36,053 bases of DNA from a virus, in IMG/VR virus record IMGVR_UViG_3300012954_000026, positions 1 to 36,053 of that record, one strand, 5' to 3'. This document shows, in pieces, positions 7,201-36,053 of the stretch. Positions within the stretch are counted from its first letter, which is position 1; each line of letters opens with the position of its first letter. The position numbers were made by a program, and so were the translations under genes. The notes below the pieces were generated by a model. The model was not told the DNA's origin. It ran no database searches and saw only the letters and a list, made by a program, of their open reading frames with translations.

Positions 7201-7858
7201 TGTTAGTTATAAACCATTGTTTGGAGTACATGCACAAGATAACTTACAAGCAACAATTAAAATTGTAAAAAATGGCGGAGAAGTTGTTAATAATAATGAA
7301 GTAAAAGTTAATGTAATTGGAGCCATAAACAGATTCTTTGCATTACAAAATTGGGACTTCGGAGACACTTTCCACTTTACTGAACTTGCAACATATGTAA
7401 TGAACGAAGTAGCACCAGATGTTGTTAACATACTCCTTGTGCCTAAACAGGCTACACAAGGATTTGGTAGCTTATATGAAGTTAAAGCAGAGAACAACGA
7501 GATCTTTGTTAATGATGCAACAGTTGATGATGTTGAAATTATTGATTCTATTACAGCGTCAAGAATACAAGCATCAGGAAAAATTGTTACATCAACAGGA
7601 ACAACTAATGCTGGCATTAGAAGCCAACCATTAAACCAAGTGGCTACAACAAATACAACAACTACAAGCACTACTAGCACAACCACTTACTCAAGCTCAA
7701 GTAGCTCAAGTAGCTCCGGCAGTAGCTCGGGTGGCGGAGGATCATCAAGCGGTGGCGGAGGATCATCAAGCGGTGGCGGAGGATCATCAAGTGGTGGCGG
7801 CGGATCAAGTGGCGGCGGAGGTAGCTCCGGCGGCGGCGGTGGAGGCTATGGATACTAA
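4217..7858 (+). CDS. 6: Baseplate wedge protein gp6 with Gly/Ser-rich C-terminal tail
   Basis: This 1,213-residue protein is the large wedge subunit that forms the iris ring of the baseplate. The N-terminal part (DWQKVYQSYRNAEFRSYDFD, then IDMIAFLGQNISYRVDLNAR and RLARMLSYNPKR) is the conserved gp6 start. VFADGTFGNLPAGQ and the NRMITGEDYNIVP segment in the middle are also typical of gp6/gpJ-like wedge proteins. T4 gp6 is about 660 residues, so this one is roughly twice as long; marine versions also tend to be longer. The last 55 or so residues are almost only Ser and Gly in GGGGSSS units and end in GGYGY, which is unusual for a wedge protein. A good ribosome-binding site (AAGGA at 4206-4210) lies seven bases before the ATG. 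The stop overlaps the next ATG (TAATG). Confidence 0.9.
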   Translation: MSSTDRQNRLLLAEDWQKVYQSYRNAEFRSYDFDTLRRAMITYLRQNYPEDFNDYVDTSEYIALIDMIAFLGQNISYRVDLNARENFLELAERRESVLRLARMLSYNPKRNQCANGLIKFETVSTSESLVDSNGSNLSGQTIIWNDPSNANWAEQFRRVLNAALPQNGTIGKPAKTVVINGVSTQQYRFNSEGADVPVFAFTKAVGGQPTQFEMVSTGIDEDRKVIKEENPVPGTSLAFLYREDGRGSGSANTGYFLHFRQGTLKSNVFNVNSPSSNQKIAIEAQNINDTDVWLYSLDDLGIPDRIWSKVDSLEGNNAIYNSLNKRIRDFYAVQTRADDEVSLVFADGTFGNLPAGQFRVYYRTSANRLMSIAPSELTSITFSLPYVSQSGTTETMTIGVELKTPVTNATTSESSADIRQNAPQTYYTQNRMITGEDYNIVPLTSNQEIIKVKSTNRTTSGISRYFDLKDATGKYSSTNLYGSDGVLYREPYESKTSFTFNTQTDIEGAIENTILPIIQSRAISNFYFSNYAKIIVSDLNARWKQSTKTTNSSTGLLQNISDVPYQVGSFTGGSLKYIEAGALLKFKSPLGFYFIGDGELTSDASAKGASDYKWVKVISVNGAGTSVDSVTGVGPIVFNEILPANSVLEEVKPKIVKDITPDIRSQIIDQVFAYKTFALRYDQVNRNWRVIINENLNTVDVFSNGKTGDVTKNQLDSSWIVLFETNGEKYTVTNRGLRYVFESDTELSFYFDGQNKIYDSQTGQLVKDKIGIMNFNTKPDSLENFNNDIDWEIVNEFRNTDGYINSKKVEVSFFDLNDDGSVDDPDIFDNVVAPLTNPSTKYIFLKKQSTDEGFSKYNYYSQGNTINVVSTETEIGAYSQYNEGQVFYIIDTNNFKFLSNNILTVTADYKAQVGRSNLKFHYVHSADEGNRIDPSASNIIDIYMLTKTYDTNFRRYLAGATSVMPLPPSTDELFQNYGSSIALYKSISDEVIYHPVSYKPLFGVHAQDNLQATIKIVKNGGEVVNNNEVKVNVIGAINRFFALQNWDFGDTFHFTELATYVMNEVAPDVVNILLVPKQATQGFGSLYEVKAENNEIFVNDATVDDVEIIDSITASRIQASGKIVTSTGTTNAGIRSQPLNQVATTNTTTTSTTSTTTYSSSSSSSSSGSSSGGGGSSSGGGGSSSGGGGSSSGGGGSSGGGGSSGGGGGGYGY
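7730..7855 (+). repeat. In-frame tandem repeat encoding a GGGGSSS linker at the gp6 C-terminus
   Basis: Three near-identical 21-base units (7730-7750, 7751-7771, 7772-7792), differing only at the last base of the third, are followed by shorter 18-base variants (7793-7810, 7811-7828) and a run of Gly codons. All keep the gp6 frame. The unit sizes are multiples of three, so slippage or recombination would change the linker length without breaking the frame. The stretch is far richer in G and C than the surrounding gene. A GGAGG inside it (7841-7845) is the only visible ribosome-binding sequence upstream of the next ATG, 12 bases away. Confidence 0.9.
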
Positions 7859-22800: not shown

Positions 22801-22959
22801 GCAAACGTAACTTTGTTAAATACACCAGTAGTTGGTGCAAAGATAAAAATTGTCAGAAGACAAGGAAAACGCTGGGCAGATCCAGGAATTTCACTTAATG
22901 ATGCGGAAAGTTTGGTAGCACGTTTCTTTAAGGCGGAAAAGGTGGAGCTACCCAAATAA
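7858..22959 (+). CDS. Giant virion structural protein (5,033 aa), gp7 position, baseplate/fibre-like
   Basis: One uninterrupted frame. The N-terminus (DLLPKYFRTVANKKFLSSTI, EKVDGFIGRRDS, then WQPHIDWDKFVNFREYYWLP) and a central block (DRPHSHPWEILGFKEKP, about residue 1213) recall large structural proteins of marine myophages. Visible modules, approximate: four segments with a Y..G..V....YY/W... pattern like CBM5/12 sugar-binding domains (about 1515, 1768, 2268, 2870); five FG-GAP-like blade motifs (about 2183, 2239, 3009, 3066, 3166); two GSGY/GQGY beta modules (about 3600-3680, 3960-4020); three GDGST modules (about 4468, 4548, 4920); and a GERIEY...RGTLGTG module (about 4858). No membrane segment, signal peptide or catalytic motif was seen. 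It follows gp6, where T4 has gp7 (1,032 aa). It may be a gp7 wedge fused to adhesin modules, or a replacement for several wedge/fibre proteins. Being structural is well supported; a gp7 identity is inference. Confidence 0.8.
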   Translation: MAQDESPIPVEGDTSKRKSTDLLPKYFRTVANKKFLSSTIDQLMQPGVIEKVDGFIGRRDSKAFKASDNYLSDVTPDRENYQLEPVATITDDLGNTTFYRDYRDYVNASKIRNTDNTDHSLYNSQEYYAWQPHIDWDKFVNFREYYWLPPGPDEIPVFGTARDVKSTFSVKRQDNIDNNSYIFSEENKVSNPTLTLYRGQEYTFDIDCIDMPFSIRTSNSIDDDSNLYNVDVSQQKVEQGSITWKISLESPDVLYYTNGNDIEASGLIIIKDIRDNTQLDVGSEILGKKSYTMQNGYKLTNGMKVKFYGQITPEKYGEGNWYVEGVGESINLISESDLVITADYLSDVSTEFDAQGFSALPFDDATSYATLKDYIVINRASKDGNQWSRYNKWTHKSVIENIAKINNVPVVLDQRYRATRPIIEFEAGIKLYQFGTESKTAVDLVDTVTNDVFSNIEGQVGYFVDGVELVSGMRVLFTADPDSFVAGKIYEVGFINQNGTLQIALTETTDTAPLENETVLVKSGTTYKGKIFYYDGTNWKQTQDKTTVNQQPLFDLYTDNGSQLSSLDSSTFRGNKIFSYKVGTGANDTELGFPLSYRTIENSGDIVFDFNLLLDTYQYDDIADVITKSTDTALLRKYSNRTSFTNVSGWTKAPTKSSQPVVKQTTVGARTNNFIVDVYVNSGDLNDLEIKAYVNSVRKRENVDYVINRINNYAYVTFNEELTKDDKLVLKTKSSAKKRPGVGFYEFPVNFEKNPQNENVTTFTLGEVLDHVESIVDNVTGFEGVFPGVSNLRDLGNGSKYGLKFVQHSGPINLALYNLTDKDFNSIEAMKYSAFAYIKFKREFLRTADELGFEGYDKVHVDRILSKLHENLTNKDPFYFSDMIPHGGDTKVRHIIEDQSQTIFSLTRGIDYTTLSETAVLAYLNEKQLLINKDYTVSTDGFLTLLNPPTGGDILDVYEYSTTDGCWVPPTPTKLGLYPKFTPEIILDDTYITQPTDVTGPWKVYGRDEKTTKSYKGKLGWFYPLYTDELSAKQADTLNGGAGEVHTHVFAGTNKVFYMPNSEMSHATNDSQLHEEYPNAYPMLQGHDGSLWRCFGDFRDNLLLDIEKRIYNNLKLPYDENIVNIADYIPSKNRVTGFTRKQISKTMISEFNSWLETVGTPDYVTNQVYKVGNGFTYNYASAGDPNNNALTGFWRSIYKDFYNTDRPHSHPWEILGFKEKPDWFDSEYGASPYTSNNLLLWEDISKGIVRGPEGSKVTYKNKFKNEDIYKYIPVDDEGNLLAPNETGYAVGNVPTTNSNEFAFGDEGPVETAWRRSSHYPFSLMISWALNQPAQFFGLAFDRSRIVRNGADQLVYKDTSKRIELNQLIFPNSATEDTRVFTAGIVNYIQGYLADNDTVRFSDYKTNIRSIENKLGSKIGGFTQKSKFRLILDSRTPTNEGNVFVPEENYKIQLTKSVPTQVYSYSGMIIEVSPSGYIVKGYDKDNPVFKYYPVRRKNSDQVINVGGISENFLTWSEGKTYEAGQIVELSDNYYRVKISHTSGEGFVQDNFQKLAELPEEGGASAYISTNFSASLAELPYGTLFREKQDVVDLMMGYQKYLTTVGFSFENFNKEIEEIENWRLSAKEFLFWTTQNWEAGTILTVSPSARQITFVQKYSVIDDIYDNFYDYSLLKADGKRLLADFATTERDNTNDFGIFVKNTEDGIFHLKLPLVQHEHAIIIDNKTVFGDVIYNRAQGYRQERIKVKGYRSDEWNGSYNIPGFIFDDAKPTEWVAWQDYDIGALVKYKQYFYVSKTKITGSNIFQDKKFLRLIEKPEQQLLPNFDYKAKQFADFYDLDSDNFDIEQQKLAQHATGYQKRKYLENIINDEVSQYKFFQGAIQDKGTKNVLTKLFDKLGSANKDSLEFFEEWAVRVGRYGATEGDDQFDIIFDETKYRQEPQQVELVNEINPQDTSLIYRLSRNDIYVKSKDYNHKPFPTKYFNEENSYTKTAGFVNPSDVSLSLLTYDDILQQTNIATNSYIWTASDKSQQTWGVYKLESTDFRISGVTASQSNKFTITCNKAPNYTKGDIIGINDISDATDGYYKVDSVSLNIITLESLEGEDVEATDDTADTNGYITEFKIARLATLAKANDSFINTDILNNRLWIDDDDLGKWLVLQNRKVFELKNNIVNTSAGLLDSTEKDFGSAFSVSSNNNRIAITAPKDLNGSVYIFQRPSDNTDFGFLQQIDEQLFLFDSNGGFGQSVAMSPDGKYLAIGSPHASNVKSRLRGDFNPREAYAVGDIVLYSEQLWKADRVIEADALQVYSNHSSNQQAKENDYDSATQTYPEIEYIVRGDYTLGADESTDHILVRAEKEQFEGTKPGDKLTLKWNKYTTTASAGVLPFNGDTTLTESLINGTHTIIDKVQHIIHIQSALSVPDAGTEITTDTCRAVIQYRKVNNENEMTVYIKDVNGSFQGTGKIYADGILVGDYVESLQITDDYHTGWWHVGVGSSFLSNNLVETKANLVIQNITLEGETVNDPFFSNILDTKQLQNVLEPTKVSEISILSHTQGQSNIEVLDSKWWVRTPLAHGSSITVGDKTRLWLNTIRVNGLVQDPSAIGLTSTYINNTEHTVADIWNGYVEVRLTNFDLNGDPFIPNVGDILTDTTTGSTGEIAFIERAFSTAKIYIKNRNGTWAVGSDFGVNSNATFVENVPGLGPATRTIGPINSAHMENTISGPIIVIDSGVNIPVVVGGANYLRDLEYWIYSDNTIEGITDVANPPSSINLDWKRVYNIPAIAEGYETALEEQGTFAIYEMKGVTYQLINYYTVPNSANYRKLGTKLKFVQPDLNSYKLYIHAEGDGTEANQGRIYFVNKNAEDDWALSVQKNYRGDFRVSATYFEGEFVRFGETIYKANTNLVPGVFNVSQWTAQSNGLDLLGYVPNDTNFSLVESTLEQRNLEAFGSDFDVSLKGEVLISNSMYTSVYEIESGDTVLGLDSSIANRKVVVYRQNGSNYEYSQILEPFNETEDFGLSIAVSNDGKKIAVGAPQNSDISKNGGAVYIYVQNGNTFVYNQTLRPIDKSVNIQFGTKIDFDGNTLAVASRGGSMIEKATFDVHRDRKTPDVTSVERYILDNKSQINPIETSFDNNSTVFQTIDQGSGVVSLYETVNNTLLYSQNFTYDLDTQDFGNRMAVNSNHVYIGLPKQQVPNSSILDKGLVAEFRKPMNTTSWLITRQPIIPVDTSKFKGVYLYNKKTNGLRTYLDYIDPIQGKIAGPAEQEISFKTSYDPAKYNNSTDAIITADTLDYTSDEWIGKLWWDIDSARFINYHQGDISESTANFNTLFAGTNVQVHEWVESTLLPSEWDTQSATPDGVENGISGTSLYGDSVYSSRRRYDEASQTFETHYYYWVTNKTTLPEIENRVTTAIDVARYIANPASMGYRFVAMLGDNRFALFNCSPFISDTDTAISFNWWTIENQEQPTHIQYQLVSDGLETSVPNREIEQKWFDSLVGFDKNDRPVPDISLPIKSRYGALNDPRQSWFVNRTEARKQFIERTNGTLAKHLIVDEFDLTKLTGFDPSPTLATGLYDTTSDSNAELRFVSVARVKPASLTLEVENGVIINVIVNDPGQGYINTPTYKIADTEGSGCELKFELDANGKISSVEIVNGGRDYTDRVTITVRKFAVLVKSDETVSGKWSVYEYDGTEYLRTLTQSYDINLYWQYRDWYATGYNKFTFINYTVDSSYQIYALDDQIGDIVKINSVGTGGWLLLRKISNLDTQDYTLSYETIGRENGTIEFKNSLYDTSASNSAFDGASFDKIFYDTEPDTEFRKILEILKSDIFIDNLAVYWNELFFASIRYVLSEQPNVDWVFKTSFVKAKHNIGELAQKVTFQNDSLPSYQDYVTEMKPYKTKIREYLSAYEKVDPASNVITDFDLAPYYNEDEGKIVPQSVQVIGNEVIPGVSDLQNYPSRHWLDNLGFEVTSFSIADSGSGYQVAPKIIISGGGGSGATAEAFIGTGGRVTSVKVTNAGSGYLTAPTIQVVGSFGDTGSIARLSPILGRGKARSAHIRCKFDRVTGTYLFQTLNETQTFTSGVDQQIFNLKWPMQLVSTQITVTVDGLESLRSEYTFSNVTDTSKGYTRSYGRIVFSNALNVNRAITITYNKAPELLQAQDRINLYYNPTTGMYGNDLAQLIDGIDYGGVEVSSFDFGTGTGWDSDGWFTTTYDTFDTTFEDEIFQIGDDSTRVLNFATPLVANTVYNVYKNGVRLDDPNFGTANPVTNTNAVMQSVTGAGQTGVALYDDAGDLGSSIIVLDEENIPTGPGDILVFRKSTSDGAFLPDPRSYDTVLTGGDLAFSTARGINPEEIIVDGDDFISPTTSKGPEEQVPGQVLDAVNIRVFHRPKEGGSLLSSNSYRSDGISGVYEFGIQPQNKEGLIVKLNDVILAQSLYKVDYRLKTVTFNTVPNANQEVNIVSISGNGKNSLEQSEFVGDGSTLAYVTKVHYDTNLDYYATVNGKAVESVLTSTGDSTNKDPKAMIVFGSPPPDNSIINFAVYTGIDNFSKIETTEFIGDGSTKLFTLPKTPYSALPNSHNVIVKQGNKILNPGYNQSFDCTLAQREYFLEIWQAPIGSFQSKDIQILLNGKELTIAVEYNLRPANSSVILEPGIGREGDILEVYIRTDGEYAFGDVQNINSNLTWVDSGALLQLNTAPPDGEKLTVYTFNKHDSMDFERQNFDVVARSVIAVGTEDHIQFNHIKAGLVKLRYPAIDAQYVWLTINGILQTPSVDYKLTEDRNFIKHKGSFADDDVIEVIQFSAQGEISPKFGFSQFKDILNRNIYKRLGDVAPLKLAQDLATFDKEILLDDASALSTPDKNSSQPGILFVNGERIEYLIKQGNVLRQIQRGTLGTGVASIHEAGSDVYNQGPNQTAPYADQTIIDEQIGDGSTTVFPLSFTPTSVNEFEIFVAGKRLRKNAIQMFNPALDQDSPEADETAPAEFSVDGTTANVTLLNTPVVGAKIKIVRRQGKRWADPGISLNDAESLVARFFKAEKVELPK

Positions 22960-25673: not shown

Positions 25674-27515
25674 ATGGCATATCAAATTAATAAGACTAGC
25701 GGTGCATTACTTGTTAACCTAGCAGACGGACAAATAGATACAGTATCAACTGATATCACACTTATTGGTAAAAACTATACAGGGTTTGGTGAAGCAATAA
25801 ATGAAAACTTTGTTAAGATGTTAGAAAACTTTGCAAATGCATCATCACCGTCTAATCCATTAGCAGGACAAATTTGGTGGGATACATCAGCATCTAGATT
25901 AAAAGTTTATACAGGTACTGACTGGACAACAGGTGGCGGACCTATTGTACAACCTACAGAGCCTGGAATGGTTGCAGGTGACATGTGGATTAACAATGAT
26001 GCAAACCAACTTTACTTTTTTGATGGTACTGATTTAGAATTAGCAGGACCAATTTACAATGCATTCCAAGGACGTTCAGGACCTGAAGTTGTAACAGTAC
26101 TTGATAATACAGGTACAAGTAGAACTATTGTAAAATATTGGGTAGGTGGTACGTTTGTAGGCTTATGGAGTAAAGTTGCATTTACTCCGCAAAACGTAGA
26201 TACTATTCCAGGATTCACTGGAGATGCTGTTAAAGGATTTAATGTTGTTGACGCAGACTTTGTTTTTGCTGGTACAGCCGCTAGAACATCAGCACTAGTT
26301 GATAGTAATAACGTTGCAAGAACAGCGGCACAGTTCCTTGCAAGTGACTCTGATGATGCAACATCAGGTGCATTAACAGTTAGAAACAACTTAGGACTTA
26401 CAGTAGGACTTACAGATAACAATGTTGTAAAAGTAACAGTAGACGGTGTTGTAAACGAAAACAATGTTAGTAACCAGAACTACACATTTAGAATGACCAC
26501 AAGTAGTGGTAAGAAAGATGCAATGACTATTGATTCTGGAAACAACAGAATTGGTATTTACAATACAACGCCATCAGAAACATTAGACGTTGGCGGAAAT
26601 ATGCGTGTTGCAGGAAACTTAATTGTTGACGGAGAGACAACAGAACTTGATATACAGAAATTATTAGTTAGAGATAAGAGTATTGAACTAGCAAAAGGGG
26701 ACGATAGTACACTACTAGATGACGTTGGAGTAGACGAAGCAGGTATTATAGTAGCATCATCCAATGGTAATAAAGAACTTTTATGGCGTAACGGAACAAA
26801 TTCATGGACATCTAACGTAAGTCTAAACTTGACAGGTGCAAGTTCACTTAAATTTAATGGTGTAGACATTATTACTGGATCAGCAGGTGTTGGTCTTACA
26901 AGTGTTGGTGCATTAACATCAGCAAATATTGGTAGTTTTCAGTTTACAGGCGGTAATAACTTATCAACCACAACAGTAGATGGTAGTGGAAATGGTATGA
27001 ATATTACAGCGGCTGGTAATATTAACTTAGTTACACCAAGACAAATTAGAAATGTAAGTGATCCAACAGCAGATCAAGACGTAGCAACAAAAGCATATGT
27101 TGATAGTAGCATTGATTTAGAAGTTTTAGCACTAGCATTAGATGTAACAGGGCTTGGAACAGCAGATTCTGCACAACAGCATACAAATATTGCTACTATT
27201 GTGAATGATATTGCTCCAGCAAGTACAAAACGAGACGGAACACAGGCTAGAATACACTGTACAACTACTACAGGTGCTACAGCAACACTAACTGGCTCTG
27301 CCTTAAACACAGCATTTAACGAAAGTACAATACTTGTACAACAAAAAGACAACAACGGCAATGATGACGGATCTGTAAGCGTAATTCAAAGTGCAACATT
27401 TAACGATGCAACTGGTAATATTACATCTACGGTATCTAGAACATTGAAACTATTTAGAGTTACTGGCGGAGCGTGGGTCTACGTTCAAAACTTAACTCCG
27501 GGCAGTCTTGTATAA
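25674..27515 (+). CDS. Tail fibre protein, second paralogue (613 aa)
   Basis: The N-terminal 165 or so residues repeat the module of the neighbouring fibres: GKNYTGFGEAINENFVKMLE, NPLAGQIWWDTSASRLKVYT, and GDMWINNDANQLYFFDG. The middle has a shaft pattern (AMTIDSGNNRIGIYNTTPSE, LDVGGNMRVAGNLIVDG) and an LLWRNGTNSW segment. Toward the end comes ATKAYVDSSID, a motif frequent in phage fibres just before a trimerising coil. The C-terminal 150 residues are beta-rich and lack the tail-collar domain of the first paralogue, so this is probably a different receptor-binding tip or a longer connecting part. The start follows the previous stop by one base; AGGGGGC at 25662-25668 is the ribosome-binding site. 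The late-promoter motif for the next gene overlaps its stop codon. Confidence 0.82.
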   Translation: MAYQINKTSGALLVNLADGQIDTVSTDITLIGKNYTGFGEAINENFVKMLENFANASSPSNPLAGQIWWDTSASRLKVYTGTDWTTGGGPIVQPTEPGMVAGDMWINNDANQLYFFDGTDLELAGPIYNAFQGRSGPEVVTVLDNTGTSRTIVKYWVGGTFVGLWSKVAFTPQNVDTIPGFTGDAVKGFNVVDADFVFAGTAARTSALVDSNNVARTAAQFLASDSDDATSGALTVRNNLGLTVGLTDNNVVKVTVDGVVNENNVSNQNYTFRMTTSSGKKDAMTIDSGNNRIGIYNTTPSETLDVGGNMRVAGNLIVDGETTELDIQKLLVRDKSIELAKGDDSTLLDDVGVDEAGIIVASSNGNKELLWRNGTNSWTSNVSLNLTGASSLKFNGVDIITGSAGVGLTSVGALTSANIGSFQFTGGNNLSTTTVDGSGNGMNITAAGNINLVTPRQIRNVSDPTADQDVATKAYVDSSIDLEVLALALDVTGLGTADSAQQHTNIATIVNDIAPASTKRDGTQARIHCTTTTGATATLTGSALNTAFNESTILVQQKDNNGNDDGSVSVIQSATFNDATGNITSTVSRTLKLFRVTGGAWVYVQNLTPGSLV

Positions 27516-27518
27516 ATA
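27511..27518 (+). promoter_or_regulatory. Perfect T4-type late promoter TATAAATA before the third fibre gene
   Basis: TATAAATA is an exact match to the T4 late consensus. It overlaps the stop codon of the second fibre gene and lies 26 bases before the next ATG. A start near 27524 would leave a leader of about 20 bases holding the TTAGGGG ribosome-binding site at 27531-27537. It is the only perfect copy I noticed in an intergenic position. Confidence 0.65.
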
Positions 27519-27544: not shown

Positions 27545-29032
27545 ATGGCATACGTAATAAATTTAACAAATGGAGGATCGTTAGTTACAGTTGAAGACGG
27601 TACCATTGACCAGAGTACTTCACTTAAATTAGTAGGTAAGAATTATGCTGGTTATGGTGAAATCCAAAACGAAAACTTTATCCATTTACTAGAAAACTTT
27701 TCTAGTGCAAATCAACCAGCTGGACCGCTTAACGGACAGATTTGGTTTGATAATTCACAAAAAAAATTAAAGTTCTATGACGGAACTAAGTTTAGAACAA
27801 CAGGTGGAGCTGAAATTTCCACAACACAACCAGTTGGATTAACAACAGGTGATTTTTGGTGGGATACTAGCAATAACCAACTATATGCACAGAACTCAGA
27901 TGGTGGATTTGTCCTAATTGGTCCACAATCAATTGGTGAAACAGTAAGTGCTATGGTTACTGCACAGGTACGTGATAGCAACCAAGTAAACAGAACTATA
28001 ATTAAGGGTACTGTTGATGACGGTGTTGTGTTTATTGTTAGCAATGCAGAATTTACTATAGATACTACAGATCCAGCTAATGCCATTACTGGTTTTGACA
28101 TTGTACGTCAAGGACTAACACTAAGAAATACAACTAGTGCGGCAAGTGGTGTTACAAGTTCAGCACATAGATTCCACGGTACAGCAACAAACGCTGAAAA
28201 ACTTGGCGGCGTAGCGGCGGCAGATTATGCTCTTGCAGGCGCGGCTAATTTTAGTAGTGTTGTAAGATTTGCAGACGCAGGATTTACAGTTGGTGCGGCA
28301 AATGACTTAGCAGTGTTTATTGATGAGTCAGGATCAGGTAATGAAGGTGTTATTGACAATACAGTTGGACAGAAAATTAGATTTAAAGTTAAGTCAAGTG
28401 GTGGTGTAACAACAGAACCATTCCATATTCAATCAGGTGGACTTATACCTACAACTACAACAACGTATGATATCGGTGATTCAAACTATAAATGGAGAAA
28501 CATGTATGCAACTTCATTTAATGGATTGGCAACACAAGCGATTGCATTACAAGTTGGTTCGAATTATAGAACAGGTGACGTAAATCCAACAAACAATACA
28601 GTTGCAGTACGTGACTCAAGCGGTAATATTGCCGCAAACGTGTTTAATGGTATTTCAACAAGTGCAAGATATGCTGACTTGGCAGAGAAATATACAACAG
28701 CAGAAGAATATCCAGTAGGTACAGCAGTTGCAGTTGACTTTGGTGATGAAAACGAACATGAATGTGTAAGTGCAAAATCAAGCTCAATGCCAATTGGTGT
28801 TGTATCAGCAGAACCTGCATACTTAATGAACAGCGATGCCGAAGGCCAAGCAATTGGTTTAAAAGGTCGTTTACCAGTACGTTGCAAAGGCGTTATTAAG
28901 AAAGGTGAAGCAGTTTACGCTTGGGAAGATGGAGTATGCTCAGCAGTACAAACTACAGCATTAGTAGGAATAGCTTTAGAATCAAGTACTGACGAGTCAG
29001 AAAAACTTATCGAGTGTGTACTTAAAGTATAA
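27545..29032 (+). CDS. Tail fibre protein, third paralogue with distinct C-terminal domain (495 aa)
   Basis: The shared N-terminal module is clear: VEDGTIDQSTSLKLVGKNY, then GYGEIQNENFIHLLENF, GPLNGQIWFDNSQKKLKFYD, and GDFWWDTSNNQLYAQN. The shaft region includes TTTTYDIGDSNYKWRNMYAT, a pattern often seen next to the end domains of phage fibres. From about residue 369 a different C-terminal domain starts with YADLAEKYTTAEEYPVGTAV and continues through a beta-rich stretch (GRLPVRCKGVIKKGEAVYAW) to the end. DLAE-Y-x-PGT-type domains are common at the ends of marine phage fibres; I know no proven function. It has its own late promoter (27511) and ribosome-binding site, so its level could be set apart from the first two fibres. 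Confidence 0.82.
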   Translation: MAYVINLTNGGSLVTVEDGTIDQSTSLKLVGKNYAGYGEIQNENFIHLLENFSSANQPAGPLNGQIWFDNSQKKLKFYDGTKFRTTGGAEISTTQPVGLTTGDFWWDTSNNQLYAQNSDGGFVLIGPQSIGETVSAMVTAQVRDSNQVNRTIIKGTVDDGVVFIVSNAEFTIDTTDPANAITGFDIVRQGLTLRNTTSAASGVTSSAHRFHGTATNAEKLGGVAAADYALAGAANFSSVVRFADAGFTVGAANDLAVFIDESGSGNEGVIDNTVGQKIRFKVKSSGGVTTEPFHIQSGGLIPTTTTTYDIGDSNYKWRNMYATSFNGLATQAIALQVGSNYRTGDVNPTNNTVAVRDSSGNIAANVFNGISTSARYADLAEKYTTAEEYPVGTAVAVDFGDENEHECVSAKSSSMPIGVVSAEPAYLMNSDAEGQAIGLKGRLPVRCKGVIKKGEAVYAWEDGVCSAVQTTALVGIALESSTDESEKLIECVLKV

Positions 29033-29051: not shown

Positions 29052-29966
29052 ATGGCAGTAGGCGATACAATTACCGCGGCGCGGTATAACATTATTCAAG
29101 CAAGAGTAGCGGCAGTCATTGGACTAGGGTCTGGTGATGAAGGCTATGGACAATCTAGAACTAGTAGTACAGTAGCAGTAGGAGCAACAATTACAGCTCA
29201 AGATATGCAAAACTTGTTTACTGACATGACAAAAATTAGATTACACCAAACAGGTTCGGTGCCTGCTGAAATAGCAGTACCAAGTGTAGGTGATACAGTG
29301 TTAGATTCAAATACAACTAACAAAGAAGGTTATGCACAATACGAATCATTAAGTACAACATGTCAAAGTGCAAGATTAAGTGCGGCCGCAAGCCAATTAG
29401 GCTTACAATCAGGAACATCAAGTGTAAGAAATTCAAATTGGTCAACTGATATTAACCATACATTTACAGTTACATTTGGCGGGTATTCAGTAACTAACGG
29501 AGACGGAACAACAACTACAGTAAACGGTGAAAATCATATGCGTGTATTTTTTAATGCAGGCGGAACAATTAATCTAAGCGGATCTATTGGTAGTGGTAAC
29601 TCAACTATTAACAATGACTGGCGTAATTTGATGAGTAGTGTTGGTACAGTTGTATTTGGTAGAAGCACTACAAGTAATGGATCTACTGGTACTAACTTTG
29701 GTTTTGTAAATTTACCTACAGGTTTTACAACAATTTTTAATAAAAATGCATCAGCGTATTCAGCAAACGATTACTTAATTCAAGCAAAGAAGAACGGCAA
29801 TGTTCTAACTTTTACAGTGACATTCAATGAAGATAAAGTAGCAAATCCAAACTTTGACGAAGCAGTTACAGCAACAACAACTAGTACTGCACAGTTAAAA
29901 CGTCCTAATAATTCAAGTAGCGTTAATATTACAGCGCCAACTTTCAACAATACAGATAACCTATAA
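29052..29966 (+). CDS. Virion structural protein, probable fibre-associated adhesin (304 aa)
   Basis: The N-terminal region (GDTITAARYNIIQARVAAVI, GSGDEGYGQS, then AQDMQNLFTDMTKIRLHQTG) resembles structural proteins that occur near the fibre genes of marine T4-like phages. The rest is rich in Thr, Ser, Asn and Gly with alternating hydrophobic residues (HTFTVTFGGYSVTNGDGTTT, VFFNAGGTINLSGSIGSG), as expected for a beta-sandwich or fibre tip; there is no Cys-rich or enzymatic motif. It is followed by the glycosyltransferase-like cassette, and its Ser/Thr/Asn content would make it a possible acceptor of sugars, which is speculation. AAGGA lies six bases before the ATG, about 20 bases after the previous stop. 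Confidence 0.68.
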   Translation: MAVGDTITAARYNIIQARVAAVIGLGSGDEGYGQSRTSSTVAVGATITAQDMQNLFTDMTKIRLHQTGSVPAEIAVPSVGDTVLDSNTTNKEGYAQYESLSTTCQSARLSAAASQLGLQSGTSSVRNSNWSTDINHTFTVTFGGYSVTNGDGTTTTVNGENHMRVFFNAGGTINLSGSIGSGNSTINNDWRNLMSSVGTVVFGRSTTSNGSTGTNFGFVNLPTGFTTIFNKNASAYSANDYLIQAKKNGNVLTFTVTFNEDKVANPNFDEAVTATTTSTAQLKRPNNSSSVNITAPTFNNTDNL

Positions 29967-29972
29967 GAGTAA

Positions 29973-30004
29973 ATAGTTATACTATAAAGTAGGAGTATAA
30001 CTAT
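29973..30004 (+). promoter_or_regulatory. Perfect 10-bp hairpin enclosing the ribosome-binding site of the 115-aa gene
   Basis: ATAGTTATAC (29973-29982) is the exact reverse complement of GTATAACTAT (29995-30004). The 12-base loop (29983-29994) contains the AGGA of the ribosome-binding site, and the last two bases of the 3' arm are the A and T of the ATG at 30003. In mRNA this could form a stem that partly hides the start codon and displays the Shine-Dalgarno in a loop. It could control translation, bind a protein, or act as a DNA operator. It marks the border between structural genes and the accessory cassette. Confidence 0.6.
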
Positions 30005-30350
30005 GGACGAAGCACTGAAGAAGGCGTTAGATTTTTCTAATTTCACCTCTACTCTTAATGCTCAGAAGGCGATCCTTAAAAATAAATGTAAAGATGACTC
30101 TGCATTGTACTTCGGCGGAGGAAAGTTTACAGTAACTATGACACTTTTTTCTTTTGTGTCTAGTTTAGTACTTCACAAAATTGAATCAACAATACTAGTT
30201 GATGACAACAATACACCTATTCAAGTAGATAATGTTATAGAATTTTTTGATCTTGTAAAAAACAAATATGGAACAGCAACAAACACTTATCTCAACGACT
30301 ATAAAAAGTTGACAACTAAACGAAGTATAGAAGGTTTAGTAGATGAGTAA
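30003..30350 (+). CDS. Conserved T4-like phage protein of unknown function (115 aa)
   Basis: The product starts DEALKKALDFSNFTSTLNAQ and contains YFGGGKFTVTMTLFSFVSSL, ILVDDNNTPIQVDNVIEFFD and, at the end, YKKLTTKRSIEGLVDE. From memory, a short protein with the same layout (ALDFSNY at the start, VDDNDTPI in the middle, KTKRSVEGLV at the end) is widespread in marine T4-like phages, but its function is not known to me. The sequence suggests a small helical globular protein with no membrane segment. AGGAG at 29991-29995 precedes the ATG by seven bases and sits in a hairpin. The end overlaps the next gene by eight bases. Confidence 0.8.
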   Translation: MDEALKKALDFSNFTSTLNAQKAILKNKCKDDSALYFGGGKFTVTMTLFSFVSSLVLHKIESTILVDDNNTPIQVDNVIEFFDLVKNKYGTATNTYLNDYKKLTTKRSIEGLVDE

Positions 30351-31164
30351 TGGAGTTCTTTGTTTTGCAAATAACAATGGTAAGATAAACTATATTCTGC
30401 AAGCACAAGAATTAGCCAAACGTGTACGCAAATATTTAGACTTACCTACATCAATTGTTACTTCTACACCTTGCCAAGTAGACAAATCATGTTTTGATAA
30501 AGTAATTCATTCAGAACATCCTATGGGAAATTTTAAAAGGTACTATGATGGTGCAAGTACCCATGTCAATATTCCTTTTAATAATGCAGGACGAATAAGC
30601 AGTTATGATATTTCACCTTATGATCAGACACTAGTATTAGATACTGATGTTATTATATGTAACAGTGATCTAAAAAATGCTTTTGATAGTGTACATGATT
30701 TTCAAATTTACAAAGATTGTATAGATCTCACAAATTGGAGAATACATAAAGAATTTAATTACATTAACGATAAAGGTATTCCGTTTTATTGGGCAACAGT
30801 TTTTTGTTTTAGGAAAACAAAGCAAACAAAAATATTTTTTGAGTTAATGAAACATATAAAGCAAGAATGGACACATTATAGTAATGTATTTGAATTAGGA
30901 TCAAGAAATTTTCGGAATGATCATATTTTTAGTATTGCTATTCATATAATGAATGGATTTTTAGATAGTGATTGGGCAAAGACTTTACCAGGGTCTCTTT
31001 ACTATACATTAGATAGAGATATATTACACAAGATTGATAAATCTAAACTTGTATTTTTGTTAGAAAAAGAAAATTTACACGACGAGTACATTTTGTCTGC
31101 AACTAACAATATGAATGTACATGTAATGAATAAGTTTAGTTTAGAGAGATTGTTAAATGTCTAA
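30343..31164 (+). CDS. Glycosyltransferase-like protein (GT-A fold, DTD motif)
   Basis: This 273-residue protein reads like a small nucleotide-sugar transferase. The segment TLVLDTDVIICNS places a DxD motif at D100-T101-D102 at the end of a hydrophobic strand, where GT-A enzymes bind metal and nucleotide sugar. About 50 residues on, PFYWATVFCFRKTKQTKIFF resembles the acceptor-side region of GT8-like proteins, and RNDHIFSIAIHIMNG may carry a second acid/His pair. It lacks transmembrane segments and is likely cytosolic. Its neighbour (31157) has the same SYD-or-PYE-then-VLDTD arrangement and similar size, so the two are probably diverged paralogues. The ATG lies inside the end of the 115-aa gene. 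Substrate and acceptor cannot be told from sequence. Confidence 0.68.
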   Translation: MSNGVLCFANNNGKINYILQAQELAKRVRKYLDLPTSIVTSTPCQVDKSCFDKVIHSEHPMGNFKRYYDGASTHVNIPFNNAGRISSYDISPYDQTLVLDTDVIICNSDLKNAFDSVHDFQIYKDCIDLTNWRIHKEFNYINDKGIPFYWATVFCFRKTKQTKIFFELMKHIKQEWTHYSNVFELGSRNFRNDHIFSIAIHIMNGFLDSDWAKTLPGSLYYTLDRDILHKIDKSKLVFLLEKENLHDEYILSATNNMNVHVMNKFSLERLLNV

Positions 31165-31957
31165 AGGTTATCTATTAGTAGCAATGGGCGATGATTATAT
31201 TAAACAAGCATGCTTATGTGCTTTAAGTATTAAAAAGACACAAACATTATCTAATGTTTCTATTATGACAAGTGATGTTGTTCCTGATAATTATAAAAAT
31301 TTGTTTGACCAAATAATTGAAATACCTTGGTGGACCCCTGATAGAAGTTTTTACGGACCAGAGCATCGCTGGAAAGTTTTCCATATTACTCCTTATGAAG
31401 AAACTATTGTGTTAGATACAGATACAATATTTTTAAATAATGTAGATTATATTTGGAATAGTTTACAAGGTTATAGTGTTGGCTTTTTAACTGATGTAAA
31501 AACGTATAGAGGAACCACAGTAACAGATAATTTTTATAGGCAAGTATTTGTTAAAAATAATCTGCCAAATATTTACAATGCATTTCATTATTTTAAAAAA
31601 GATGATATTGCATTAGATTACTATAAACACTTAGAATTAGTTTGTAAGAATAGCAAACAATTTTATAACATACATTTGAAAAAATTAAAACCTAAAGTTA
31701 CAAGCATGGATGTTAATCATGCTATTGCTATTTTAAATAGTAATTTACAAACATACGAAATAAATTCTTTGAACTTTGTACATATGAAGTCAAAAGTTCA
31801 AGGTTGGGAAGAATCAAACGTATCTTGGGTGCATGATATTCCTTTTTATTTTGATAACGAACATAATCTTAAGATAGGTAACTATCGACAATCAGGTGTT
31901 TTCCATTATGTTGATCACAAGTTTTGTAATGAAGTTATAGGAAAATACCATGCATAG
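31157..31957 (+). CDS. Glycosyltransferase-like protein, second GT-A member (DTD motif)
   Basis: The product has 266 residues. The N-terminus (KGYLLVAMGDDYIKQACLCA followed by LSIKKTQ) is typical of GT-A enzymes that start with a strand and a helix binding the nucleotide. HRWKVFHITPYEETIVLDTD gives a DxD at D87-T88-D89. MDVNHAIAILNS, and HMKSKVQGW further on, could provide the acceptor-side acid and the C-terminal metal-binding His seen in GT8-like families. No membrane segment is present. The ATG overlaps the end of the previous gene by eight bases, so the two would be made together. It could glycosylate a protein, or extend a lipid- or surface-linked glycan; the sequence does not decide. 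Confidence 0.7.
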   Translation: MSKGYLLVAMGDDYIKQACLCALSIKKTQTLSNVSIMTSDVVPDNYKNLFDQIIEIPWWTPDRSFYGPEHRWKVFHITPYEETIVLDTDTIFLNNVDYIWNSLQGYSVGFLTDVKTYRGTTVTDNFYRQVFVKNNLPNIYNAFHYFKKDDIALDYYKHLELVCKNSKQFYNIHLKKLKPKVTSMDVNHAIAILNSNLQTYEINSLNFVHMKSKVQGWEESNVSWVHDIPFYFDNEHNLKIGNYRQSGVFHYVDHKFCNEVIGKYHA

Positions 31958-32480
31958 TATAAAAGTTGAAACAAAACAGTATGTGTGCTTTGATTCTAAA
32001 ACAGGAGAAATTTTTTCTATAGGACCAAGCCAAGAACCCGAATACGAATATATAGAAGTTACTGAAGAAGAAATAGAGCCTATACAAACATACAAAGAAA
32101 GAATGGAAGATTACAAAGTTATTTTCAATTCTGTTTCTAAAAAGTTTGAATTAAGAAAGCTGGCAAATTTAGAAATAGAAAGTAATTTTGTATTACATCA
32201 AATACAAGAAAAAACTACAGATCCTTACTATGACATAGTGTTTACGGTTGACAAACAAAGAGATTTATGCTATATTAGTACAATCGATAGTCTATCTAAT
32301 GTAAATTTTGATACAAGCATTATGTTTAGTATCACTAAAAAAGATGATCCGCATTTTTTAATCAAATCTGTAGATTACAAAGTCGGAGAAGAAACAGAAT
32401 TTAGTATGAAGGCAGATAGCTCATACAGTATATACACAAATAGTAATTCACTAAGATGTGTATACGAGGAGATACAATGA
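31950..32480 (+). CDS. Unknown protein (176 aa) in the glycosyltransferase cassette
   Basis: I do not recognise the family. The N-terminal third (VCFDSKTGEIFSIGPSQEPE followed by an acidic stretch EYEYIEVTEEEIEP) looks like a short beta-hairpin plus linker. The middle (YKVIFNSVSKKFELRKLANL) and C-terminal two thirds look like a beta-sandwich. There is no enzymatic motif, signal or membrane segment. It starts eight bases inside the previous glycosyltransferase gene, and its stop overlaps the next ATG (ATGA), so it belongs to the coupled unit. A small binding or adaptor protein for the modifying enzymes, or a minor structural protein that they modify, would both fit. Confidence 0.6.
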   Translation: MHSIKVETKQYVCFDSKTGEIFSIGPSQEPEYEYIEVTEEEIEPIQTYKERMEDYKVIFNSVSKKFELRKLANLEIESNFVLHQIQEKTTDPYYDIVFTVDKQRDLCYISTIDSLSNVNFDTSIMFSITKKDDPHFLIKSVDYKVGEETEFSMKADSSYSIYTNSNSLRCVYEEIQ

Positions 32481-33385
32481 AGTTAAAAATTGCAGAACTT
32501 GATATAATTTATTTAAGTTATGACGAACCTAATGCAGAAAAAAATTATGCAGACTTATTAAGTAAAGTACCTTGGGCAAAACGTGTACACGGAATAAAAG
32601 GTTCAGATGCCGCACACAAGGCATGTGCTGAATTAAGTGAAACTGATAGATTTATTACAGTAGATGGTGACAATACTATACGTCAAGATTTTATTAACCA
32701 AGTATTAGACTTTGACGAATCCAAAGATCTTAAAAATTGTGTTATTAGTTGGTGCGGTAAAAATGCTATTAATGGACTAGTATACGGTAACGGAGGATTA
32801 AAATGCTGGCCTAAAGAATACGTGTTGAATATGAAAACACATGAAAATGCTGATGACAGCAACATACATGCAAAGATTGATTTTTGTTGGGACGCACAGT
32901 ATATACAACAGAATAGTTGTTATTCAGATGTACATAATAATGAAACTCCGCAACAAGCCTGGCGAGCAGGCTTCAGAGAAGGTGTAAAACTAGCCACTGA
33001 CCGAGGAGCTAAAATTGCTAAAGAAGAATTTATTAAAGGACATGCAAAAAATTTAAACATGCTGTATATTTGGATGATGGTTGGTTCAGATGTTACAAAC
33101 GGAAACTGGGCAATATTAGGTGCTAGAGAAGGACTAGCCATGACTATGTTAACTGATTGGGATTATGTAAACGTAAGAGATTTTGAACATTTAAATGAAA
33201 TGTGGGCTGGCAGAGATGAAATGCCTGCTGATGTATTGCACGATGAAATTTTTAATTATGGAAGCGACTTAGTCAACCAATTAGAGATACCTATCGCAGT
33301 ACAACCTCTTAACGAAGAACAAAGTTATTTTTTTAAAACAGTAAACAATAATTATGGTAGGAATAATGCGTCCGCAAACAGTTGA
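32477..33385 (+). CDS. VDGD-motif glycosyltransferase-like protein, first paralogue (302 aa)
   Basis: The product opens with DIIYLSYDEPNAEKNYADLL and KRVHGIKGSDAAHKACAELS and then TDRFITVDGDNTI, placing a DxD-type motif at D63-G64-D65 after a hydrophobic strand. This is the layout of GT-A/GT2-like glycosyltransferases. KNAINGLVYGNGGLKCWPKE follows. Everything up to about residue 120 has a close counterpart in the 34700 gene; an extra segment (AGRDEMPADVLHDEIFNYGS and beyond) lies at the C-terminus. ATG 32477 was chosen because GAGGAG at 32466-32471 is five bases upstream and the ATGA overlap with the previous stop is typical; the ATG at 32456 lacks a ribosome-binding site. A sugar-transfer role is likely from the motif, not proven. 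Confidence 0.65.
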   Translation: MKLKIAELDIIYLSYDEPNAEKNYADLLSKVPWAKRVHGIKGSDAAHKACAELSETDRFITVDGDNTIRQDFINQVLDFDESKDLKNCVISWCGKNAINGLVYGNGGLKCWPKEYVLNMKTHENADDSNIHAKIDFCWDAQYIQQNSCYSDVHNNETPQQAWRAGFREGVKLATDRGAKIAKEEFIKGHAKNLNMLYIWMMVGSDVTNGNWAILGAREGLAMTMLTDWDYVNVRDFEHLNEMWAGRDEMPADVLHDEIFNYGSDLVNQLEIPIAVQPLNEEQSYFFKTVNNNYGRNNASANS

Positions 33386-34712
33386 AGTTAAGGAAAAACT
33401 AGATGCTGTTGGTTGTGGCTTTTGTCTTGCTAAGTGGACACAAGTAACAATTCACTTAGGCTCTGGACTTACACACAGTTGTCATCACGTCAAAGCACAC
33501 CCTATTGATTTAAACGAACTTGCAGAAAATCCTGGTACTTTACATAACACTGGATTTAAAAAGAACGTAAGAAAACAGATGCTTAACAACGAGCGTCCAC
33601 ATGAATGTGACTATTGCTGGCGTATTGAAGATAATACAGACGAATATAGTGATAGAGTTTTTAAAAGTAGCGACCCGTACAGTTGGTCTGATTTTGATAC
33701 TATATCTAAGATGACTGGTGATGAAAACTTTTATCCTCGTTATGTTGAAGTAAGTTTTAGTAATGTTTGTAACTTTAAGTGTGGATATTGTGGTCCTGCA
33801 TTTAGTAGTAAGTGGGGCGACGAAATTAAAGAACACGGTCCATACACATTTAGTATGATTAATTGGAAATACAATCAGCCAGATGAATATCAAAAGCAAA
33901 TTCCGCAAAGAGAAACTAATCCGTATATTGATGCATTTTGGAAATGGTTTCCAGAAGCAGTAAAACATATGCATACTTTCCGTATTACAGGAGGAGAGCC
34001 TCTAATGAGTAAGCATACAAACAAGGTAATAGAGTATTTGATTAAAAATCCTCAGCCTGAGTTAGAGTTTGCAATAAACACAAATGCATGCCCTCCAGGA
34101 AATACGCAATGGCAGGAATTTGTAGATAAGATTAAAGCCTTAGAAGATAATAATTGTATTAAACGATTTGTTCTATTTGTAAGTGCTGAAGGCAAAGGAG
34201 CTCAACAAGAATATAATAGACATGGTATGAATTGGACAATGTTTGCAAACAATGTAAAGTATTACTTGAAGCAGACAACAGGTAGTTGTGTCTTTATGAG
34301 TGCATTTAATGTATTAAGTATTCCTACGTTTTTACCTTTTTTAGAATATGTTGCTAGACTTAAAGGTGGCTACGATAACACTGTCAGAGTAGATATACCT
34401 TATGTTAGAAATCCAGGATTTTTAGATGCTAAAATTGCTACAAATGATTTAATTGAAGAATATCTGCATCCTTGCGTTTCTTATATGGAATCAAAGAAGT
34501 TTAGTAATAAAGAAATAACACAAATGAAACGTATTATACAAGATTTAAATATAAGACAGAATAATCCTAATTTTGAAAAAGAAACAACCGAAGGCAGGAG
34601 AATGTTTTATGAATGGGTACAAGAATACGACAAAAGACGAGGCACTGACTTTGTGAAGACTTTTCCACAAATGAATAATTTTTTACAGGACTGTAAAGCA
34701 TGTATGATATAG
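33366..34712 (+). CDS. Radical SAM enzyme (twitch/SPASM-like) of marine phage type
   Basis: The CNFKCGYC motif (C135, C139, C142) binds the [4Fe-4S] cluster that cleaves S-adenosylmethionine, and FRITGGEPLMSKH is the GGEP SAM-binding strand. Extra Cys pairs lie in GCGFC (C17, C20), HSCHH, HECDYC and the C-terminal DCKAC, as in members with an added twitch- or SPASM-type cluster region. The product has 448 residues from this start. It lies between two paralogous VDGD proteins, so it may modify the same substrate: a peptide, protein side chain or sugar. The start is uncertain. ATG 33366 has AGGA only three bases upstream; ATG 33354 (four residues more) has no visible ribosome-binding site. Both overlap the previous gene. 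The enzyme class is firm, the substrate unknown. Confidence 0.88.
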   Translation: MRPQTVEVKEKLDAVGCGFCLAKWTQVTIHLGSGLTHSCHHVKAHPIDLNELAENPGTLHNTGFKKNVRKQMLNNERPHECDYCWRIEDNTDEYSDRVFKSSDPYSWSDFDTISKMTGDENFYPRYVEVSFSNVCNFKCGYCGPAFSSKWGDEIKEHGPYTFSMINWKYNQPDEYQKQIPQRETNPYIDAFWKWFPEAVKHMHTFRITGGEPLMSKHTNKVIEYLIKNPQPELEFAINTNACPPGNTQWQEFVDKIKALEDNNCIKRFVLFVSAEGKGAQQEYNRHGMNWTMFANNVKYYLKQTTGSCVFMSAFNVLSIPTFLPFLEYVARLKGGYDNTVRVDIPYVRNPGFLDAKIATNDLIEEYLHPCVSYMESKKFSNKEITQMKRIIQDLNIRQNNPNFEKETTEGRRMFYEWVQEYDKRRGTDFVKTFPQMNNFLQDCKACMI

Positions 34713-35383
34713 TCTTTATAAGTTATAACGAACCAAATGCCCGTCAAAATTTTGACGATTTGTACAGTAGATTTAACACTATTGGTGTATTTGGTGATAG
34801 AGTAAAGCATGTTTCTAATGTAAAAGGCATACATAATGCACATATTGAAGCGGCCAAACTAGTAAACACAGATTACTTTTTTGTAGTAGATGGAGATGCA
34901 CAAATTTTAGACAGTTTTGTTTTTGATTATACTGTTCCTAATCTTGTTGATGATGTTGTGCATGTTTATCACAGTAAGAATCCTATTAACGATTTAACAT
35001 ATGGTTATGGTGGTGTAAAATTATTACCAACTAAACTTACAAAGAACATGGATATAACAACTACTGATATGACTACAAGTATTAGTAATAAATTTAAAGT
35101 AATAAATGAAGTAAGTAATATTACAGCATTTGATACAGACGAATTTAGCACATGGAAAAGTGCATTTAGAGAATGTGCAAAGTTAAGCAGTAAAGTAATT
35201 GATAGACAAGATGAAGGAGAAACAAATGAAAGACTCAAAATATGGACTACTAAGGCTAATGGAAGATTTTGTGAGTATGCGATTCGAGGTGCTAGGGCTG
35301 GTATGGAGTTTGGCCTTTCTAGCGGGACTGACCTTCGGCTAATAAATGACTTTGATTGGTTAAAGGAAAAATTCAATGCTTAA
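34700..35383 (+). CDS. VDGD-motif glycosyltransferase-like protein, second paralogue (227 aa)
   Basis: It parallels the 32477 gene along most of its length: YDIVFISYNEPNARQNFDDL, then NVKGIHNAHIEAAKLVNTDY, FFVVDGDAQI with D64-G65-D66 (almost the same position as in the paralogue), and KNPINDLTYGYGGVKLLPTK. AFRECAKLSSKVI resembles the AGFREGVKLATDR stretch of the paralogue, and AIRGARAGMEFGLSS its ILGAREGLAMTM stretch. It is about 75 residues shorter, lacking the C-terminal extension. The ATG lies 13 bases inside the end of the radical SAM gene, with AGGA nine bases upstream. Placed around the radical SAM enzyme, the two paralogues may act on successive steps of one product; that is inference from layout. 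Confidence 0.65.
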   Translation: MYDIVFISYNEPNARQNFDDLYSRFNTIGVFGDRVKHVSNVKGIHNAHIEAAKLVNTDYFFVVDGDAQILDSFVFDYTVPNLVDDVVHVYHSKNPINDLTYGYGGVKLLPTKLTKNMDITTTDMTTSISNKFKVINEVSNITAFDTDEFSTWKSAFRECAKLSSKVIDRQDEGETNERLKIWTTKANGRFCEYAIRGARAGMEFGLSSGTDLRLINDFDWLKEKFNA

Positions 35384-36053
35384 TATTGTTGTTACAAGTA
35401 AACCTGTAGATGGACTTTTTTATTATAGTTATGAATACTGTTCTCTTTTAAATAGTTTAGGAATAAAAGCGAGAGTGATTGTAATTACACATAGGAATTT
35501 TACTCAACAAGATTACCTAGATGTTTTAAAGTACAAATACATACATCAACATAATGTTTTGTTTAACTCATTAGACGGTTGGACAGGTGATGCTACATTA
35601 ATTATGGGCAGAAGTATGATGACATTAAGCTATCAAGATTTTGATAGTTATACAATGCAACAGCAAATGATCTTACGTACTTTGTTTGCAGGTAATGTAA
35701 TTAGTGTATACTCAGAAAATCATCCTGCGAAATATCCACTAGCAGTTGAATTTTACCAACCTGAGAAAATTGTGGACTTATGTGATACAGAAGTATATCC
35801 TAATGGTGTAGGAATACATTTTGAGAAAACAATTAATTTTGACATATACAAAAAGCACAAAGACAATATACAATTCAAGCATTTATTTTTAGGCACTAAT
35901 GACAAGTATTATGCAACAATAGAAAAAATAATTGATCAATATCCAGATCATGGTATTTTAACATATGATGCTGATTACATAAATCCTAAAAATAATAACA
36001 TATTTGTTCCTGTAAAAAATCTAATGAGTTTGTTTGAAACATACGTATATACA
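35376..36053 (+). CDS. Partial unknown protein, possible glycosyltransferase N-terminus (cut by the right edge)
   Basis: The frame is open for 226 codons from an ATG at 35376 to the window edge, and the end is missing. AAAGGA at 35362-35367 lies eight bases upstream, and the start overlaps the previous gene by eight bases, matching the other junctions of this cassette. The N-terminus (NIVVTSKPVDGLFYYSYEYC followed by SLLNSLGIKARVIVITHRN) looks like the first strand and helix of a Rossmann-type domain, as in GT-B glycosyltransferases. DATLIMGRSMMTLS and VISVYSENHPAKYPLAVE continue the alpha/beta pattern. No catalytic residues can be named from the part that is visible. The context supports a role in the same sugar pathway; the family assignment is tentative. 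Confidence 0.65.
   Translation, partial: MLNIVVTSKPVDGLFYYSYEYCSLLNSLGIKARVIVITHRNFTQQDYLDVLKYKYIHQHNVLFNSLDGWTGDATLIMGRSMMTLSYQDFDSYTMQQQMILRTLFAGNVISVYSENHPAKYPLAVEFYQPEKIVDLCDTEVYPNGVGIHFEKTINFDIYKKHKDNIQFKHLFLGTNDKYYATIEKIIDQYPDHGILTYDADYINPKNNNIFVPVKNLMSLFETYVYT

Follow-up and report, generated by a model that had tools for sequence, protein, structure and literature searches.

A cassette of eight overlapping genes at the end of a 36,053-nt stretch of viral DNA (IMG/VR virus record IMGVR_UViG_3300012954_000026, positions 1 to 36,053; this whole stretch is called the window here) is read, tentatively and at slightly less than an even chance, as an operon for assembling and tailoring a glycan, with the host envelope as its target. 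The cassette encodes a small protein (g0), two proteins with DTD motifs (DTD1 and DTD2), a 176-aa protein (g176), two proteins with VDGD motifs (VDGD1 and VDGD2), a putative radical S-adenosylmethionine (SAM) enzyme, and a partial protein (f23). The initial annotation had suggested that these genes serve a joint pathway, and this is supported by their co-inheritance as an overlapping block, the match of DTD2 to glycogenin, the GT-A fold predicted for VDGD1, and seven invariant cysteines in the radical SAM protein. We infer that the enzymes of the cassette assemble and tailor a glycan, and their activities, substrates, host-envelope target, and timing are deduced in the same manner.

The source is a 36-kb virus record, and the window ends inside the cassette, with the last gene partial. 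The eight genes lie on the same strand from position 30003 to the window end, and all seven junctions overlap, in order by 8, 8, 8, 4, 20, 13, and 8 nt; these values assume that VDGD1 starts at 32477 (with an ATGA overlap and a GAGGAG ribosome site) and not at 32456, and that the radical SAM gene starts at 33366, with 33354 also possible. The overlapping genes described in the initial annotation for 30343-36053, with a pair each of DTD and VDGD proteins and a single radical SAM enzyme, were confirmed from the open reading frames (ORFs). However, this interval holds seven genes instead of the six counted, since the gene of the 176-aa protein was missed, and the unit begins earlier than proposed, because an eighth gene, g0, overlaps the first of the seven and belongs to it (Table 1). 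Upstream of the cassette lie several fibre genes and, before these, an ORF of 5033 aa that is virion-like. The baseplate wedge protein is approximately 35% identical to those of Phosso, Atu_ph07, SCTP-2, and PBECO4-type phages, which places the window with jumbo T4-like myoviruses; the phage is uncultured and marine.

IMG/VR was searched with VDGD1, which returned at least 600 matches, and the locus survey covers the loci kept from those. The gene order fibre-fibre-g0-DTD1-DTD2-(g176)-VDGD1-radical SAM is nearly always retained, and the overlaps are mostly short, with 8, 4, and 1 nt being the commonest. Order and overlaps recur in about 100 marine viral contigs, so the gene set is not a matter of chance. 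DTD2 served as an independent anchor in 75 other viral contigs, which are its best-scoring relatives and include some near-duplicates. Around it, DTD1 was found upstream in 72 of 72 loci and g0 in 69 of 69, VDGD1 was found downstream in 60 of 60, and a radical SAM gene followed VDGD1 directly, within 60 nt, in 52 of those 60. The linkage of VDGD2 is looser (radical SAM gene within 2.5 kb in 40 of 47). The cassette genes are inherited together as a single overlapping unit. A tblastn search of 50,697 INPHARED phages did not find the core, and no direct DNA or protein relatives of it were found in cultured phages. In the genome bins L137, L142 (Neomarinimicrobiota MAG RS350; MAG, metagenome-assembled genome), L139, and L149, phage fibre genes adjoin the cassette; such contigs in marine-bacterial bins are probably stretches of jumbo phage DNA assigned to a bacterial host by mistake, and several MAG contigs with fibres beside VDGD1 are, likewise, probably binned phage contigs.

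Among the full-length cassette genes compared, VDGD1 shows the strongest conservation, with a mean column identity of 69% against 45-62% for the others. Its AlphaFold2 model (predicted local distance difference test, pLDDT, 90.7; predicted template modelling score, pTM, 0.90) has as best Foldseek matches the GT-A enzymes SunS/ThuS, RmlT, WrtF, and TarP. Structural superposition gave a VIA Z of 10.7 to B4GALNT1 (root-mean-square deviation 2.9 over 138 residues) and 10.6 to a Leptospira glycosyltransferase, and the top rows of the structural search are nearly all nucleotide-sugar enzymes. VDGD1 can therefore be predicted with confidence to adopt a GT-A fold, and VDGD2, its paralogue by hhalign (99.95%), is assigned the same fold by homology; sequence comparison shows no relation between VDGD1 and DTD2. 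The DXD motif is invariant in both paralogues, as D63/D65 in 50 sequences of VDGD1 and as D64/D66 in 36 sequences of VDGD2. Since nucleotidyltransferases of the same fold (MobA, IspD) also score against VDGD1 (Z 8.7-9.2), sugar transfer is a putative activity, suggested by the fold together with the invariant DXD. None of 50 VDGD1 members reached E 0.001 in Pfam (the best match was to Glycos_transf_2, 0.0091, in one of the 50), and the VDGD proteins of the window had no significant match in NCBIfam or PHROGs. VDGD is a previously unnamed GT-A-fold family, covered by no Pfam, NCBIfam, or PHROG family.

GT8 enzymes are characterized by a DXD motif and a C-terminal motif of the H-x(n)-K..W type. 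The DTD2 profile matches structures of glycogenin-1 (GT8) at E 8e-7 over profile positions 4-105, and D87, D89, H209, and K211 are invariant, with W224 near-invariant; DTD2 thus agrees with GT8 in both profile and motif. DTD1 has an invariant DXD (D100/D102) and matches glycogenin weakly when compared directly (E 0.39), and it is assigned through its homology to DTD2 (hhalign, 99.8%). The radical SAM protein belongs to the NCBIfam family NF033640 (twitch domain-containing; 301.4 bits against a cut-off of 170) and matches Pfam Radical_SAM at 7.7e-7. It carries a GGEP motif and the CxxxCxxC signature (C135/C139/C142) together with C20/C39/C81/C84, which are putative auxiliary-cluster cysteines, and all seven cysteines are invariant in 32 sequences. 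The family score and this cysteine signature assign it as a putative twitch radical SAM enzyme, for which iron-sulfur clusters and SAM cleavage are predicted. The AlphaFold2 model of g0 (pLDDT 94.8) has prefoldin as its best structural match, a weak one (Z 7.5) within the range of common arrangements. An acyl carrier or a precursor peptide was also considered for g0; the prefoldin-like coiled-coil model, at Z 7.5 only, argues against both. The best PHROG match of g176 (E 0.0025) is a family of unknown function. The full-length homologue of f23 in the closest relative has 283 aa, and homologues are 61-93% identical; it has no Pfam match and no match to Protein Data Bank (PDB) profiles better than E 0.35, which leaves the GT-B-like character given to this last gene in the initial annotation unsupported, though not refuted.

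Relatives lengthen the cassette into mostly one-directional clusters with up to 17 radical SAM genes. Counted with a cassette-derived profile, such genes number 17 in G019, 13 each in G002 and G018, 12 in G008, and 11 in G016. Positions 11970-14561 of G019 (L121) hold a single 863-aa ORF in which the radical SAM motif occurs twice, apparently through fusion of two enzymes. In all of the 16 clusters, a family was found that we read, by its motifs, as class I methyltransferase-like. Integral membrane proteins are nearly absent from these 16 clusters, which are almost wholly cytoplasmic; the few proteins with at least three predicted transmembrane segments include a TctA-like permease.

The closest relative, G009, is mostly 90-99% identical to the window over its final 10.6 kb, with two low-identity islands, one in the fibre C-terminus (window 28.6-29.0 kb, residues 352-486, 62-76% DNA identity) and one in the radical SAM gene (window 33.4-34.6 kb, 72-83% identity). 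These islands suggested that fibre tip and radical SAM enzyme co-evolve, but a partial Mantel test that controlled for the backbone yielded r 0.08 (p 0.11) over 53 loci, and two other pairs have divergent fibre tips but similar radical SAM genes; therefore, such co-evolution is not claimed. After f23, G009 continues with a sugar-aminotransferase-type gene, nitroreductase-like genes, a radical SAM gene, and a gene of a NodU-like carbamoyltransferase, and further on with GDSL-like, Asp/Asn-hydroxylase-like, AMP-binding, and TctA genes. The aminotransferase is of the DegT/StrS type (Pfam 2e-82 on the G012 homologue; PseC 2e-55 in G009). At L133:3444-5913, in the cluster of this relative, a TctA-family transporter gene is followed by the gene of a possible substrate-binding protein, and the gene lying across L132/L133 begins like a flavin-dependent tryptophan halogenase (GGGTSGWWTAGYL). 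Downstream of the cluster, at L133:8688-9812 (- strand), a protein with an Mtd_N domain (major tropism determinant; E 7e-11) is encoded.

The fibre gene fib495 is preceded, 12-45 nt upstream, by a T4-late-like TAAATA box in 75 of 76 relatives (shuffles 4.7%). Upstream of g0, a sigma-70 promoter (TTGACA-N17-TATACT/TATAAT), called where at least 11 of 12 consensus positions agreed, was found in 56 of 102 distinct upstream regions (shuffles 0.2%), and the g0 start codon lies 20-32 nt past the -10 box in 55 of the 56 promoter-bearing regions. Other tabulated cassette and fibre boundaries have 0 or 1 such site, except VDGD2 (8 of 61). Sigma-70-type promoters are the early type in T4-like phages. 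The sigma-70 promoter at g0, set against the late box at fib495, indicates that the cassette is probably its own transcription unit from g0, separate from the fibres, and probably transcribed earlier than these in sigma-70 lineages. In the clade of the window itself, g0 is preceded by TAAATA and by no sigma-70 site, and expression timing probably differs between lineages. A sigma-70 site in the window at 32248-32276 (11/12) was rejected, as it lies inside g176 and promoter-like sites in total are no more frequent than in shuffles.

Counterparts of the cassette are also found in bacteria. Bdellovibrionota contigs with chromosomal neighbours (L151, L164, L166, L167) hold VDGD1, usually VDGD2, several radical SAM genes, and mostly also a methyltransferase-like protein (f6); two of their radical SAM types share 61-67% identity with those of phages. 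Unlike the phage cassette, these clusters have no adjacent g0, DTD genes, or fibres. As VDGD1 and VDGD2 each include phage and Bdellovibrionota members (support for the VDGD2 clade 1.0), the duplication that gave rise to the pair seems to predate their exchange between phages and bacteria. In Rhodobacterales, VDGD1 occurs without radical SAM genes and has a GT4-type gene adjacent where tested. Independent occurrence of the homologues, which the initial annotation had named as evidence against a joint pathway, is thus not the case within phages in the neighbourhood survey, but it is seen in part, for VDGD1 in Rhodobacterales and in the cluster of Vibrio phage K566, which lacks VDGD.

In the mechanism that we propose, the DTD pair and the VDGD pair would pass on sugars taken from nucleotide donors, and the role of the twitch radical SAM enzyme would be to alter a sugar or its carrier by epimerisation, dehydration, methylation, or C-C bond formation. 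The downstream genes of the relatives could add aminated, carbamoylated, or otherwise changed sugars and more radical SAM steps. The product might decorate a glycan of the host envelope, for example, lipopolysaccharide core sugars at the cytoplasmic face, and be exported by the host. The infected cell would thereby lose the receptor for rival phages, and the progeny would escape trapping on debris, which would explain why the pathway travels with fibre genes.

The initial annotation left the target between a virion protein and a glycan of the host surface. Early-type promoters, the fibre-free bacterial counterparts, and the sugar-building genes favour the host envelope, and the GT4-type neighbour of VDGD1 in Rhodobacterales was counted for a host glycan as well; the promoter data and the bacterial counterparts make us lean this way without settling the matter. 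Several findings weigh against it. No flippase, polymerase, or other gene of glycan export with multiple transmembrane segments was recognised in the 16 clusters, so that export by the host has to be assumed; the Asp/Asn-hydroxylase-like genes of the relatives act on proteins in known systems; and a virion target is favoured by the position of the cassette, by the likeness of g0 to prefoldin, and by the late-type box found in the clade of the window, which fits virion modification equally well. It is possible, though doubtful in our view, that these enzymes work in the cytoplasm on a virion protein, the tail fibres or some other, where they would assemble and tailor a glycan, and that g0 serves as a chaperone of the fibre or as an adaptor of the enzymes. 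The constant position directly after the fibres, the unfailing presence of g0, the cytoplasmic character of the clusters, and the two low-identity islands that set the window apart from its nearest relative all agree with such a role, for which glycosylated mycobacteriophage virions offer a precedent (Freeman et al. 2023, as cited in PMC12619734). However, the distances of fibre tip and radical SAM gene are uncorrelated once the backbone is controlled, the two discordant pairs point the same way, most relatives have an early-type promoter, and Bdellovibrionota hold the module without fibres.

An array of radical SAM enzymes with glycosyltransferases may also produce a glycosylated small molecule or a modified peptide, secreted or intracellular, in the manner of ribosomally synthesized and post-translationally modified peptides. 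The clusters with up to 17 radical SAM genes, the AMP-binding-like genes of the closest relative, the sharing of the module by phages and predatory Bdellovibrionota, and the rank of the glycocin S-glycosyltransferases SunS/ThuS as top Foldseek match of VDGD1 speak for this natural product. We consider it unlikely, as the lead of SunS/ThuS is slim (template modelling score about 0.35, with other GT-A enzymes equal or better by Z), no precursor peptide was identified, and g0 is a well-folded 115-aa protein. Phage glycosyltransferases that act on DNA exist, and the cassette might accordingly alter phage DNA bases as a defence against restriction; this is highly improbable, given that the annotated proteins include no recognisable base hydroxymethylase or DNA kinase and that the genes lie with fibres and, downstream, with a sugar aminotransferase and a carbamoyltransferase.

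Similar fibre-side cassettes have been published, and calling this an undescribed system, as the initial annotation did, is too strong. Pelagimyophages, which are T4-like marine phages, carry a hypervariable host recognition cluster (HRC) in the structural part of the genome, flanked by VrlC and the neck gene gp14, with fibres, many glycosyltransferases (GT8 being the commonest), and radical SAM cassettes, which that report reads as modification of the host O-chain (PMC7029224); we counted this for the host-envelope reading. The window likewise has, within its structural genes, a variable region where fibres stand with glycosyltransferases and radical SAM genes. It differs in its fixed core g0-DTD1-DTD2-g176-VDGD1-radical SAM across lineages, mostly with its own sigma-70 promoter, in its jumbo-type phage, and in the VDGD family, which the accessible text does not mention (PMC7029224). 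The 183-kb environmental viral genome TARA_ERS488813_N000010, T4-like and marine, was reported in 2017 to have 12 radical SAM genes and, in the part of the text available, was discussed in terms of iron-sulfur cluster metabolism with no link drawn to fibres or glycosyltransferases (PMC5332604). The Vibrio phages K566 and K567 (INPHARED, 255 kb) are isolates, and in K566 four twitch-type radical SAM genes are interleaved with glycosyltransferase-like genes; in neither phage was a VDGD, DTD, or g0 homologue detected, and the cluster lies near a lipid A acylation gene annotated as PagP. In the genome of this cultured jumbo phage, the cluster occupies 161.5-171 kb of L326. NF033640 includes the radical SAM protein of the window, and the library description assigns the family no function. 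Moraphages were set aside as a counterpart, with other predicted hosts and the term 'radical SAM' absent from the text (PMC12619734). A published description of the exact core was not found in the open-access subset of the literature, an absence that is not proof. Related regions are known, and the VDGD family, the fixed core, the promoter, and the Bdellovibrionota counterpart, none of which was found described, appear to be new.

A bolder form of the host-envelope reading, which we consider a good deal less likely than wrong, is that the pathway of VDGD proteins and radical SAM arrays common to marine jumbo phages and Bdellovibrionota makes undescribed, radically rearranged surface sugars, and that in phages, under its own host-type promoter, it serves receptor masking or superinfection exclusion. 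If a glycan pathway is indeed encoded here, a widespread group of giant ocean phages devotes 5-30 kb to an unusual glycan, and a single phage cluster with up to 17 radical SAM genes is an extraordinary outlay on oxygen-sensitive chemistry. The identity of the product would reveal how marine phages control receptor display or shield virions, and a conserved protein family unnamed in current libraries would gain a function, which could also be approached through the module of predatory bacteria.

Table 1. Genes and other features of the cassette and the adjoining fibre region, in window coordinates.
Feature	Position	Strand	Basis
fib495, tail fibre gene	27545..29032	+	PHROG tail fiber; T4-late-like box TATAAATA at 27511-27518
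fib304, second conserved fibre-region gene	29052..29966	+	ORF; directly upstream of cassette
fib304-g0 spacer	29967..30002	+	TAAATA (T4-late-like) in the clade of the window; sigma-70 promoter in most other relatives
g0, small protein (115 aa), opening gene of the unit	30003..30350	+	ORF; predicted alpha-beta coiled coil, prefoldin-like
DTD1, putative GT8/glycogenin-like protein, DTD2 paralogue	30343..31164	+	DXD; hhalign to DTD2
DTD2, putative GT8/glycogenin-like glycosyltransferase	31157..31957	+	Profile match to glycogenin-1 structures
g176, 176-aa protein, size varies among relatives	31950..32480	+	ORF
VDGD1, predicted GT-A-fold protein, unnamed family	32477..33385	+	AlphaFold2 model; invariant DXD
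Putative radical SAM enzyme, N-terminal twitch-type Cys motifs	33366..34712 (start 33354 possible)	+	NF033640, Pfam
VDGD2, VDGD1 paralogue	34700..35383	+	hhalign; invariant DXD
f23, 5' part of a conserved 283-aa protein	35376..36053	+	Homologues in relatives

Two further ORFs of the window were noted outside the cassette. The 5033-aa ORF at 7858-22959, between the baseplate and fibre genes, contains FG-GAP repeats and a CBM5/12 module, and is possibly the counterpart of the HRC border gene VrlC of pelagimyophages. The C-terminal part of the baseplate hub/tail lysozyme ORF (383-3214) matches endolysin and chitinase families.

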